A stretch of 64,000 nucleotides of DNA from Salinivenus lutea (GTDB taxonomy: Bacteria; Bacteroidota; Rhodothermia; Rhodothermales; Salinibacteraceae): assembly GCA_002894685.1 (NCBI GenBank), contig NCRC01000002.1, positions 124,001-188,000 of the forward strand. The letters run 5' to 3'. A program made the position numbers and the translations under genes. The stretch's first letter is position 1; each line of letters begins with the position of its first letter. The notes below the pieces were generated by a model that saw only the letters and a program-made list of their open reading frames with translations, made no database searches and was not told the origin of the DNA. Shown here in pieces: positions 20,774 through 24,652 of the stretch.

Positions 20774-21217
20774 ATGTACGGCACCATTCTCATTCCTGTC
20801 GACCTCTCCACGAACAACGTCGCCGTGATCAACACGATGCGTCGGCTCGGCACCCCGGGCGACACCACCGTGCTCCTCCACCACGTCATCGAGACCCTTC
20901 AGGAGGACGAGCCGGGCGAGATGGACGACTTCTACGAGGAGCTTCGCGCCGAGGCCGAGGAGAAGATGGCGCGGTGGGCCGATCAGATTGCCAACGATGG
21001 ATACGAGGTGCGTGCCGAGATCACGTACGGCCAGCGGGCCCCCGAGATCACGCGGTTCGCGGAGGCGGAAGGGGTCGACCTTATCGTGCAGCGCTCCCAC
21101 CAGGTCGACCGCGACGACGACCCGGAGACCAGCGTGGGAACGGTGAGCCACCAGGTCGCCATCTTCGCCCCGTGCTCCGTCCTGCTCGTACGCGACGACG
21201 CAGAAGCAGAGCGTTAG
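20774..21217 (+). CDS. Universal stress protein (UspA family)
   Basis: A 147-residue single Usp domain: MYGTILIPVDLS is the standard first strand with the nucleotide-contacting Asp, and the C-terminus TSVGTVSHQVAIFAPCSVLLVRDD matches the last motif (G-T-V-S then C-S-V-L-L-V). The ATP-binding G-x-x-G loop usually found before it is replaced by QRSHQVDRDDDPE, so nucleotide binding is uncertain. Very acidic. Its TAG stop shares four bases (TTAG at 21214-21217) with the TAA stop of the convergent reductase gene. Confidence 0.88.
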   Translation: MYGTILIPVDLSTNNVAVINTMRRLGTPGDTTVLLHHVIETLQEDEPGEMDDFYEELRAEAEEKMARWADQIANDGYEVRAEITYGQRAPEITRFAEAEGVDLIVQRSHQVDRDDDPETSVGTVSHQVAIFAPCSVLLVRDDAEAER

Positions 21218-23553
21218 GCGGCCTGCCCGGACTCCTGCTCCTGGATGCGGGCCAGCGACGCCTCCAGCGCATCGGTGGTGATTACCTGACCGGTGTTGGG
21301 ATCCACCTGCCCGAACTCCAGCACACCCGTCGGGCAGCTCTGCACGCAGGCCGAGCACCGCACGCACTGCGGGTCGTCCATCGGCTCCCCCTTCTGCGCG
21401 AACGACATGACGTCGATGCCCTGGTGGCAGACGCTGGTGCACACGTTGCAGGAGATGCACTTCTTCTTGTCCGCCAGGATGCGGAAGCGGCTGAACCGGT
21501 GGTAAATGTGCATGAGCGCGGCGAGCGGGCAGAAGAAGCGACACCAGAACCGCCCACTGAGCCAGAAATACACCCCAAAGCCGACCATCCCGGCCAGGAT
21601 GATGTCGACCACCCAGCTGTAGTTGAGTTGGAGCCCGAACCATTCGCCGGTGAGCCCCGCCCAGAACAGGGCCGTCGCGCCCGACCCCGGCCAGATCCAC
21701 CCCACGATTCGAAGGGCCAGGAGCACGAAGGCCAACGCCATAATCACCTGCCCTGCGAGGTTCAGCTTATTCCATCCCTCGCCGTGCGGCATTTTCTCGC
21801 GGTGTTGGTCGCCCAGGGTTTCGGCGAGCGCGCCGCAGGTGCAGATCCAGCCGCAGTACGCCCCTTTGCCCCAGAAGTAGATCATGCCCGGGATCAGGAC
21901 GAAGGTTTGCACGAAGCAGATGGCGAGCCACCACCAGAGGGGATCCGACGTGAAGACATTCCAGATGAAAAGGGGCCACGCCAGGATGAAGCCGTACGCC
22001 CGCCAGTACTGCCGCCCGTGAACGGCCGACTCGCTCACCGGAAAGAGGGCGTCCAGCAGCCCCGTGGGGAGCAGCCCATTGACGCCGAGATACGGAAGCA
22101 CGATTTCCGGCAGAATGAAGAGTGGCAGCGTCTGCACGGCCATCAGCGTCAGGGTCTGCACCCGGATGTACGGCGTCTTCCGCCGGCGAATGCGCTTGAC
22201 CCCGAAAACAACCACGAGGGCGGAGTACGCGAAGGTGTAGTAGAACCCCGGGTTCGACATCGACGCGAGCGTGACGTCTACCAGTCCGGTCCCGCTCCCG
22301 GGCGTCCAGCCAAACGGGAAGAGCTCGGCCGACTGCGCCAGCCGCCCCAGCCATCCCCCATCCTTCCAGCTGTAGATGGCCGCCATGAAGAGGAAGAAGG
22401 AGGCAAACGCCCCGATGCGCCCCCAGTTGAGCCGCCCCAGCCAGTCGAGGGAGGACACGGCGTCGCCAAGGGACTCGGGGACGTCGCCCCAGTCGTTGCG
22501 TAGTTGGACCCCGGATCGCCGGAAAAAGTCGAGCGGCGCCTCCCGTCCAATCATTGCGAACACCTCCCGCGCCGGCACCCGGTCGGTCGTTCCCTCCGCG
22601 TCCGAGAGCACCACGGCCTCCTCCTCCACCGCTTCCACGTCGGTCGGCATCCGAAGGGTGAGCGTGCCCGCAGCGTCCTCCCCTGCGGCCAGTTCGTGTA
22701 GCCGCTCCACGTTCTCTTCTTTCGGGCGGACAAATTCCGCCCGGCGGTACGAGAGCGTGACGTTCGCCCCGTGTTCGGTGAGCGCGATGGCCGCCTCCGC
22801 CGCCGAGTCGCCGCCGCCAATCACCACCACGTCCTCCCCCTCGCACCGGGTCGGGTCGTACAACCGGTGATGCACGTGGTCTCGGTCCTCGCCCGGCACC
22901 CCCAAGTCCCGAAAGTTCCCGCTGCGGCCGATCGCCACAACCACATTGGCCGCCGACACCCGCTCCCCCTCGCTCGTCACCACGTCCACTCCGGTCGCCG
23001 TTTTGTCGATCCGGTGGGCCTCGGCGTGGCGAACCGGAATGTCCTCCGTTTGCGCCTCCAGCTCTTCAATCAGCGCTTCCCGATCCTCGGCAGTGACCTG
23101 CAGGTCGCCCGCCGGCGTCATATCGTTCGGGTAGGTGTAGATCGGCTTTCCCTTCTGGAAGTCGTGGATCGTGGCGAAGCGACGGCGCGCCTCGAGCACA
23201 CAGTAGGAGAGCCCCTGCTTCTCCGCCTCTCGGGCCGCCGCCATGCCCGACGTCCCGGCGCCCAGGATCACCACGTCGTACGGCTCGTCGCCCGGGGCCC
23301 CTCCCTCCGCCGCTCGTCCGTGCGAGGCCAGGTGCCGGACCGCCTTCACGCCGCCGTCGACCGAAAACTTGAGCAACGGCACCCCCGCGAGATCGCCCAC
23401 GACGTACACCCCGTCCACATTTGTTTGGAAGTACTCATCGACGCGGGGGAGTTGCTCCACGTCCCCGGCCGGCCATTGCAGGTGCAGCCAGTGGGCATAC
23501 CGTGCCAGTGGGCGCAGGAGACGCTGGATCCCGTGGAAGAGAAAGGAAAGCAT
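21214..23553 (-). CDS. Flavin/NAD(P) reductase fused to NapH/CcoG-like membrane module and two 4Fe-4S clusters
   Basis: A 779-residue fusion. Residues 36-75 (QTNVDGVYVVGDLAGVPLLK) look like the C-terminal FAD segment of a thioredoxin-reductase-like enzyme. A normal FAD-binding start follows (PYDVVILGAGTSGMAAA, about 92-107), then an NAD(P) site (VVVIGGGDSAAEAA, about 240) and MIGREAPLDFF (about 340). About five to six membrane helices come next with cysteine motifs of NapH/CcoG/NosR type (YCGWICTCG, FWCRFFCP). Two ferredoxin motifs, CISCNVCTSVCHQG and CVRCSACVQSCPTG, stand near the C-terminus. It should move electrons from NAD(P)H through FAD and Fe-S to or from a membrane partner. The flavin domain looks circularly permuted. 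ATG 23553 is chosen before MLSFLFHG. The stop overlaps the convergent UspA stop by four bases. Confidence 0.85.
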   Translation of the reverse strand: MLSFLFHGIQRLLRPLARYAHWLHLQWPAGDVEQLPRVDEYFQTNVDGVYVVGDLAGVPLLKFSVDGGVKAVRHLASHGRAAEGGAPGDEPYDVVILGAGTSGMAAAREAEKQGLSYCVLEARRRFATIHDFQKGKPIYTYPNDMTPAGDLQVTAEDREALIEELEAQTEDIPVRHAEAHRIDKTATGVDVVTSEGERVSAANVVVAIGRSGNFRDLGVPGEDRDHVHHRLYDPTRCEGEDVVVIGGGDSAAEAAIALTEHGANVTLSYRRAEFVRPKEENVERLHELAAGEDAAGTLTLRMPTDVEAVEEEAVVLSDAEGTTDRVPAREVFAMIGREAPLDFFRRSGVQLRNDWGDVPESLGDAVSSLDWLGRLNWGRIGAFASFFLFMAAIYSWKDGGWLGRLAQSAELFPFGWTPGSGTGLVDVTLASMSNPGFYYTFAYSALVVVFGVKRIRRRKTPYIRVQTLTLMAVQTLPLFILPEIVLPYLGVNGLLPTGLLDALFPVSESAVHGRQYWRAYGFILAWPLFIWNVFTSDPLWWWLAICFVQTFVLIPGMIYFWGKGAYCGWICTCGALAETLGDQHREKMPHGEGWNKLNLAGQVIMALAFVLLALRIVGWIWPGSGATALFWAGLTGEWFGLQLNYSWVVDIILAGMVGFGVYFWLSGRFWCRFFCPLAALMHIYHRFSRFRILADKKKCISCNVCTSVCHQGIDVMSFAQKGEPMDDPQCVRCSACVQSCPTGVLEFGQVDPNTGQVITTDALEASLARIQEQESGQAA

Positions 23554-23716
23554 GCGCGATTGAGCTTTGAAATGAAGGGGCTCCCTCCACACTACGGTAA
23601 GGGGCCCGACAGGAGGGGAACGTTACGCCGCCGCCTTGCTATCAGGGTCGGCGGTGCTCTTGCCGTCGTGCCTTTCTCTTAACGGCTCCGAGCCCACTGG
23701 GCTCCACACCTTGCCA

Positions 23717-24652
23717 ATGATCTACGGTCTTGCGGGCAATCCAACCAAATCTGCCATCTGGGGCCCCGTGGCACAAACCATAGACTGGCTCCGAGAGCAC
23801 GACCTGGACTTTTGGATTCATGACCCGATCGCCAAGGGCCTGCTCGAACACGACTATAGCCCCGACGGGCTCGTCAACGACCGACGCGTCGACGACATTG
23901 CGGCCGCGAGCGACCTCGTCCTCTCATTCGGCGGAGACGGGACCCTGCTCCGCACCGCCCACCAGACCGGCCCCAACGACACGCCCCTCCTGGGCGTCAA
24001 CATTGGACGGCTCGGCTTCCTGGCCGACATTGAAGTCGACCAGTTGCCCGACGCCCTACAATGCATCGAGGCCGGGGAGTACACGGTGGAGGAGCGGATT
24101 GCCCTCCAGGTGCAAACCAGCAACCAGCAGGCATTCGACAGTGAATGGGCGGTGAACGAGTTTGTCCTAAACCGGAGCGGCTCAGCCGGCCTCATCAAAG
24201 TCAAAGTCGCCGTCGACGGGACGCCCCTGAACACGTACTGGGCCGACGGCCTCATCATCGCCACCCCGACCGGCTCGACCGCCTACTCGCTCTCCACCGG
24301 AGGCCCCATCATCACACCCGGGGTCGACGCCATCATTCTCACGCCCATCGCCCCCCATACGCTGACCGTTCGCCCCATGGTGTTGCCGGCGGACGCCACC
24401 ATCACGTGCCGCGTGCTGGGCGACGAGCTGCCCTACGTGTTCGCGGCCGACGGCCGCAGCACCCTCTTCGATACGTTTCAGAACGAGTTTCGGATTCGCC
24501 GGGCCGCCCACACCGTAAACCTGGTGAAGCTACCGGGTCAACACTTTTTCCATACGCTGCGATCGAAACTGATGTGGGGCGCGCACCGTTCGTCCGATCC
24601 GTCTGAGGGGGCGTTCCCTACCGACGAGCGCAACGACGAGTACGGGGCGTGA
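23717..24652 (+). CDS. nadK: NAD kinase
   Basis: Phosphorylates NAD to NADP with ATP or polyphosphate; cytosolic. The 311 residues show LSFGGDGTLLRTA with GGDGT at 72-76, NIGRLGFLAD (about 100), the middle block LNRSGSAGLIKV, and TPTGSTAYSLSTGGPI (about 190), followed by APHTLTVRPMVLP. ATG 23717 gives MIYGLAGNPTK, the usual beginning; the frame is open upstream to an ATG at 23636. It is divergent from the reductase gene (163 bases between start codons). The tRNA-Phe gene follows 91 bases downstream with its own promoter-like signals. Confidence 0.96.
   Translation: MIYGLAGNPTKSAIWGPVAQTIDWLREHDLDFWIHDPIAKGLLEHDYSPDGLVNDRRVDDIAAASDLVLSFGGDGTLLRTAHQTGPNDTPLLGVNIGRLGFLADIEVDQLPDALQCIEAGEYTVEERIALQVQTSNQQAFDSEWAVNEFVLNRSGSAGLIKVKVAVDGTPLNTYWADGLIIATPTGSTAYSLSTGGPIITPGVDAIILTPIAPHTLTVRPMVLPADATITCRVLGDELPYVFAADGRSTLFDTFQNEFRIRRAAHTVNLVKLPGQHFFHTLRSKLMWGAHRSSDPSEGAFPTDERNDEYGA

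Follow-up and report, generated by a model that had tools for sequence, protein, structure and literature searches.

The gene at positions 21,214-23,553 of the window, the 64,000-nucleotide stretch of Salinivenus lutea DNA that was analysed, encodes a 779-residue chain in which a flavin reductase related to thioredoxin reductase (TrxR) and YpdA, with its last FAD segment placed first, runs into a NapH-like membrane module and a predicted 2[4Fe-4S] ferredoxin. We regard it as probable that this is a single-chain NAD(P)H-dependent, and likely NADPH-dependent, membrane electron-transfer protein, in which the permuted reductase would serve the chain's own ferredoxin and, through it, the NapH-like module. 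In the open-access literature the family appears to be uncharacterised, and no precedent for a permuted TrxR-like flavoprotein was found there.

Gene and domain order

The initial annotation had the coordinates and residue numbers right, and the strand had to be corrected: the 779-residue frame is open on the minus strand, read from 23553 to 21214, and has stops on the plus strand. Several relatives begin nearer the motif RYAxWLH, so that translation may really start some 12 codons downstream of 23553. The features of the gene and its neighbours are as follows.

21214..23553, minus strand: whole gene (779 aa), permuted TrxR/YpdA-like flavin reductase with NapH-like membrane 2[4Fe-4S] module
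23323..23448, minus strand: displaced C-terminal FAD segment, residues 36-77, with strand 49-51, GD 53-54 and helix 61-77 (profile and PDB matches, rearrangement tests, conservation, model)
23281..23322, minus strand: low-confidence linker between the former C- and N-termini, residues 78-91, pLDDT about 54 (model)
23245..23262, minus strand: GAGTSG (98-103), start of the FAD Rossmann fold (Pfam, motif)
22483..23280, minus strand: rest of the FAD domain and inserted NAD(P) domain, residues 92-357, without CxxC (Pfam, alignment, fold search)
22804..22818, minus strand: GGGDS (246-250), NAD(P) dinucleotide motif (alignment)
22726..22749, minus strand: YRRAEFVR (269-276), Arg residues of a putative NADPH preference (alignment)
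21559..22425, minus strand: membrane module, residues 377-665, six predicted helices (model, alignment)
21835..21855, minus strand: CGWICTC (567-573), invariant CX3CXC after TM4, predicted cytosolic (alignment)
21526..21543, minus strand: CRFFCP (671-676), invariant CX3CP after TM6, predicted cytosolic (alignment)
21319..21468, minus strand: 2[4Fe-4S] ferredoxin domain, residues 696-745, with C699/702/705/709 and C730/733/736/740 (Pfam, alignment)
23636..24652, plus strand: NAD kinase, divergent neighbour (also adjacent in related genomes)
20774..21217, plus strand: universal stress protein, convergent neighbour, outside the unit (frame list, neighbour survey)

The chain thus begins with an N-terminal helix, followed by the GD segment, the linker, GAGTSG, the FAD and NAD(P) domains, the six predicted transmembrane helices and the ferredoxin. 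Profile searches agree with the domains initially proposed: Pfam gave Pyr_redox_2/3 at 92-354 (ending short of the profile end), Fer4_5 at 551-584 and a dicluster ferredoxin at 692-744, and NCBIfam gave NapH/MauN matches. The AlphaFold model of the whole chain has a pLDDT of 89.9 and a pTM of 0.86, with values of 86-95 in the displaced segment. The motif MIGREAPLDFF ends near residue 344 and the reductase near 357, only some 20 residues ahead of the first membrane helix at 377; by freeing the reductase C-terminus, the permutation would let the chain run directly into the membrane helices.

The displaced FAD segment and the reductase

In ordinary thioredoxin-reductase-like enzymes the stretch equivalent to TNVDGVYVVGD and its following helix is the end segment, whereas here it precedes the FAD start (NVDGVYVVGDLAGVPLLK at residues 45-62, GAGTSG at 98-103). 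Taken alone, residues 37-76 match the FAD segment at the C-terminus of normal enzymes, at positions 294-334 of NF003585, 297-342 of PDB entry 5jcl and 315-351 of glutathione reductase. G48, G53, G57, P59, L60, K62 and G68 are invariant across 57 aligned relatives from many phyla, and residue 54 is Asp in 56 of them. No further GD segment was found in the chain after the NAD domain, including the region beyond residue 340 where a normal one would have spoken against a permutation. Judging from the conservation of GD among relatives and from its being the sole such segment in the chain, the match is not due to chance.

The permutation had been proposed from the motif order, and rearranging the sequence bears it out. 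When residues 30-80 were moved in silico to the end, with a shuffled segment as control, the TIGR01292 score rose from 74.0 to 85.7 bits and the matched profile end from 247 to 276 (shuffled, 65.1 bits), and the YpdA model score rose from 125.3 to 138.0 bits (shuffled, 123.5). A match to lipoamide dehydrogenase newly appeared at 67.8 bits, the best PDB match went from 60.6 to 69.1 bits with its alignment running on to residue 297, and the rearranged sequence aligns in one stretch with YpdA, TrxR and FNR structures, past the GD region. The reverse test used a profile built from 71 family members in un-permuted order, run against ordinary reductases with five column shuffles as control. Three ordinary YpdA proteins gained from 18.5 to 32.8, from 10.4 to 20.4 and from 21.8 to 34.1 bits, in register over their C-terminal GD segment; the GD part accounts for 10 to 14 bits, and with shuffled columns the score never departed by more than 3 bits from that of the core alone. 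With more distant TrxR and GltD-like proteins this test gave no extension, and a three-sequence YpdA profile run against permuted proteins in differing orders was uninformative, its local alignment ending at about residue 191.

In the model the segment is predicted to form the strand and helix seen in TrxR and the linker 78-91 to be floppy. Residues 36-77 probably sit at the FAD site. It should be noted that sequential structure aligners cannot show a permuted segment; their end matches fell near residues 700-716.

Concerning its affiliation, the reductase has the two Rossmann folds and the GxGxxG and GD motifs of the TrxR-like two-dinucleotide-domain flavoprotein superfamily. Fold searches with the reductase part gave Z scores of 18-24 to YpdA, TrxR and FNR, the best being YpdA (Z 23.9 over 268 residues, rmsd 3.2 Å). 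TIGR01292 (thioredoxin reductase) scores 69.9-74.0 bits, and the 85.7 of the un-permuted sequence still falls short of the curated cut-off of 343; TIGR04018 (YpdA/Bdr) scores about 122-125 bits with a cut-off of 339.9, which is not reached, and the normal FAD order is absent. The NAD(P) site lacks the CxxC of TrxR, as first reported, the position reading H/N-R-L-x-D-P with no Cys pair in 57 relatives. R270 and R276 are conserved and no acidic residue occupies the 2'-phosphate position where the second strand ends, which by known TrxR/FNR chemistry fits NADPH as the likely preferred donor.

YpdA/Bdr (TIGR04018; PDB 7a76, 7a7b), the best match in both sequence and fold, likewise has FAD and NAD(P) domains without CxxC, but its GD segment comes last, as is normal, and it is soluble, with neither Fe-S nor membrane part. 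The TrxR-like ferredoxin/flavodoxin NADP+ reductases (PDB 3ab1, 2zbw, 3lzw, 6gar) work alike, passing electrons from NADPH through FAD to a one-electron Fe-S carrier without CxxC; they differ in their normal order, in having the ferredoxin as a separate protein and in having no membrane module.

Membrane module, proposed electron route and alternative readings

The membrane part had been described as NapH/CcoG-like; NapH-like is retained, although the module is neither NapH proper (TIGR02163, NapH/MauN, 62.6 bits with a cut-off of 213) nor CcoG, TIGR02745 (CcoG/RdxA/FixG) being absent among its 22 NCBIfam matches at E 1e-4. NapH-like modules have been described as modular electron-transfer units (PMC8238504), and CX3CP motifs, of unknown chemistry, are required in NapH and NosR (PMC5928378). 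NapH/MauN and NosR-type membrane ferredoxins, the best NCBIfam matches, likewise have helices with two Cys motifs followed by 2[4Fe-4S]. The fusion differs from them in its sub-cut-off scores, in its six helices, in an in-chain NAD(P)H reductase that replaces the quinol or FMN-domain partner, and in its first Cys motif, which is CX3CXCG in 57 of 57 relatives and not CX3CP; only the second is CX3CP, and the two CX3CP motifs of NapH, NosR and RdhC are therefore not both present.

Thirteen Cys are invariant or nearly so, eight assigned to two 4Fe-4S clusters and five to the CX3CXC and CX3CP motifs. The two cluster motifs noticed initially are confirmed by the Pfam dicluster match and these eight Cys, and they lie behind the membrane helices as in NapH and NosR. 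No conserved His occurs in the transmembrane helices of the aligned relatives, which argues against heme. The model of the membrane module is confident (pLDDT 89.1), and a PDB search with it gave no match at E 0.001, which is not proof of a new fold. Loop charges predict a cytosolic position for the reductase, for the ferredoxin and for both Cys motifs, and no cofactor ligand was found within the membrane; this counts against the reading that we prefer, since passage of electrons across the membrane or to quinone is then unexplained.

The strongest functional clue is a pair of separate genes in relatives. Within the class, a separate NapH-like gene is present in 54 genomes and a partner reductase in 53, and all 53 have both. 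The partner is an ordinary-order Pyr_redox_2 protein with the GD motif SAPGVYAVGD late in the chain, and the two genes are adjacent on one strand in 45 of the 53 genomes (in L156 they overlap in an ATGA). None of these 53 genomes is among the 18 that carry the fusion, and the fusion genomes have neither gene; the probability of zero overlap by chance is 0.0024 if genomes are taken as independent, which they are not. NAD kinase is divergent from the reductase gene in 41 of 47 two-gene genomes and from the fusion in 10 of the 18 genomes that carry it; G179 falls just past the distance limit. In the window's own family one genus has the two-gene form (G131, G165, G191) and other genera have the fusion. 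We read this distribution as one NAD(P)H-reductase/NapH-like unit having apparently been replaced by another in the same slot. The NAD kinase adjacency is lost in part of the window's genus (G002, G003, G005, G006, G010) and may, within one class, reflect shared ancestry. The Rhodothermales pair (L156, L157) shares with the fusion the function pairing, the genomic slot and a related module with CX3CXC and CX3CP, and differs in being two polypeptides with a normal-order reductase of another, NirB/NorW/HcaD-like subfamily. This two-gene unit (L156:5886-8785, L157), a NirB/NorW-like reductase with a NapH-like 2[4Fe-4S] protein in many Rhodothermales families, seems undescribed in its own right.

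Taken together with the likely cofactors, these observations suggest a route in which NADPH would reduce the FAD of a cytosolic reductase of TrxR/YpdA type, circularly permuted so that its last FAD segment stands at the N-terminus. The flavin would hand electrons one at a time to the 2[4Fe-4S] ferredoxin of the same chain, as there is no CxxC to accept a hydride equivalent. From the ferredoxin they would enter the six-helix NapH-like module, which carries the cysteines of CX3CXC and CX3CP, and pass on to quinone or an extracytoplasmic partner. By our estimate quinone is the leading candidate for final acceptor, at somewhat less than an even chance, an extracytoplasmic partner comes behind it, and another acceptor is distinctly less likely than either. 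In G366 the fusion is followed by the genes for glucose-6-phosphate dehydrogenase, 6-phosphogluconolactonase and phosphoglucose isomerase, again pointing to NADPH.

Alternatively, the chain could be a cupric reductase of the CcoG type that brings its own NADPH reductase and reduces Cu(II) to assist oxidase assembly or to confer copper tolerance. CcoG (RdxA/FixG) is also a membrane protein with two [4Fe-4S] clusters, of the same broad class as this module, and its physiological donor is explicitly called unknown (PMC7558416), so that a built-in NADPH reductase would supply what is missing. We nevertheless hold this role to be unlikely: the module matches NapH/MauN models and, at E 1e-4, not TIGR02745, its first Cys motif is not CX3CP, and CcoG, which has no reductase domain, occurs independently: only 6 of the 18 genomes with the fusion have it, the window's is not one of them, and it neither accompanies nor consistently replaces the fusion. 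Identity with CcoG is itself unsupported. The reverse direction, with a quinol or extracytoplasmic donor reducing the clusters and the flavoprotein producing NADPH, is in line with NapH modules being thought to oxidise quinol (PMC5928378), and the nearby NAD kinase and NADPH genes are compatible with either direction. It is improbable in our view, as NADP+ reduction by quinol is uphill and needs membrane-potential coupling, no pump module is seen, and the adjoining pentose-phosphate genes make NADPH and do not need it.

A dedicated biosynthetic role, with electrons going to the ArsS radical SAM enzyme, to arsenic reduction or to a lipid-linked step of an arsenosugar or envelope glycan, has local support. 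At L160, L162 and L116 the fusion lies with ArsS (TIGR04167), TIGR04282/TIGR04283 transferases and TIGR04169, partly also at L101 and L039, and DUF547 and related GT2 genes recur in 15 and 13 loci. The majority of loci are without these genes, though, and ArsS is absent from the window's genome and clear in only 4 of 18 fusion genomes versus 91 of 177 others; we give such a role little chance and have dropped it as a general function. Finally, circular permutations usually arise via tandem duplication followed by trimming, and the N-terminal GD segment might accordingly be the vestige of a decayed tandem reductase, with an incomplete FAD site and a reductase that is defective or uses another domain. 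The placement of the segment at the FAD is predicted, which leaves some room for this; seven of its residues never vary among the 57 relatives from many phyla, and the chain has no other GD segment, which makes the vestige very improbable.

The NADPH-driven membrane electron-transfer protein remains our preferred reading. Motifs and their conservation, the order of the domains, the pairing of the genes and their shared slot are observed; the cofactors, the use of NADPH, the route of the electrons and the topology are predicted. It bears on the open question of what feeds NapH/CcoG-type Fe-S proteins, the donor side here being joined to the module in one chain, and the same two functions in neighbouring genes of relatives make it directly testable that NADPH feeds a NapH-like module. 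A wider proposition is doubtful, if attractive: that these are widespread NADPH-driven transmembrane carriers on a two-domain flavin reductase fold permuted in nature, interchangeable with the ordinary-order two-gene version in the NAD-kinase slot, whose five invariant module Cys would hold additional Fe-S chemistry and thereby move electrons across the membrane without heme.

Distribution and origin of the fusion

Similar proteins had been suspected in other Bacteroidota; they occur there, and the range is wider. A genome-collection scan gave 195 relatives, the best 80 of which were kept, with patterns that contain the GD segment and so favour members having it. The N-terminal placement of the segment is independent of these patterns, because tblastn matches are collinear from about residue 16 to 400, and protein searches without the GD bias agree in distribution. 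Record titles place the fusion in at least 15 phyla, including Latescibacterota, Planctomycetota, Gemmatimonadota, Myxococcota, Dadabacteria, Acidobacteriota, Verrucomicrobiota, Desulfobacterota and KSB1; one fusion protein also comes from Pseudoalteromonas. The protein lies in a single frame in 75 of 82 loci (median 792 aa), nearly always as the entire fusion. A more distant Bacteroidota clade of about 830 aa has the same architecture, with a reductase part 37-40% identical. An uncharacterised protein of this range would be a redox machine and not a mis-annotated reductase. It also offers work on flavoprotein folding and engineering a circularly permuted TrxR/YpdA FAD domain that is natural and deeply conserved.

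The GD segment and last helix also precede GxGxxG in stand-alone ferredoxin-reductases of about 440 aa (for example Emticicia WP_015031197, L026-L036, L137-L155), annotated merely as 'NAD(P)-binding domain-containing protein'. These carry a membrane helix and two 4Fe-4S sites ahead of the reductase and have no NapH-like module. In a quick tree of reductase cores the fusions come together in a single clade (SH-aLRT 96) next to the stand-alone proteins, with ordinary reductases as outgroup and long branches that make the root weak; in a tree of membrane modules the fusions group together against separate NapH-like proteins. As the stand-alone permuted proteins are the nearest reductase relatives in the tree, the permutation probably predates the fusion to the membrane module, which would have happened later and once.

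In other phyla the gene neighbours differ (DUF547, glycosyltransferases, arsenosugar genes), which counts against the preferred reading, and the survey there found only DUF547 and related GT2 recurring. Several loci deserve mention. Glucose-6-phosphate dehydrogenase, 6-phosphogluconolactonase and phosphoglucose isomerase genes lie directly downstream of the fusion at L159:7174-13812. Arsenosugar clusters with the fusion are found at L160:7988-14683, L162:7528-14238 and L116:9047-17677 (Bacteroidota, Phycisphaeraceae). At L074 and L075 (Dadabacteria, Deltaproteobacteria) an RskA-like anti-sigma factor, a 448-aa protein without Pfam match, DUF547, the fusion and GT2 stand in one run. Frames of 975-1353 aa at L057, L072, L093 and L117 have 220-560 residues ahead of the fusion, either extra N-terminal domains or over-long frames. 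A Phycisphaeraceae locus (L108:6941-9292) holds a second fusion paralogue, 30% identical and of the same architecture, in which the NAD(P) motif is shifted (GAGDVA) and YRR is missing. On an Emticicia plasmid (L040:7644-13854) ccsA and two genes for cytochrome c3 lie close to a stand-alone permuted reductase, which may provide a further path from NAD(P)H to cytochrome.
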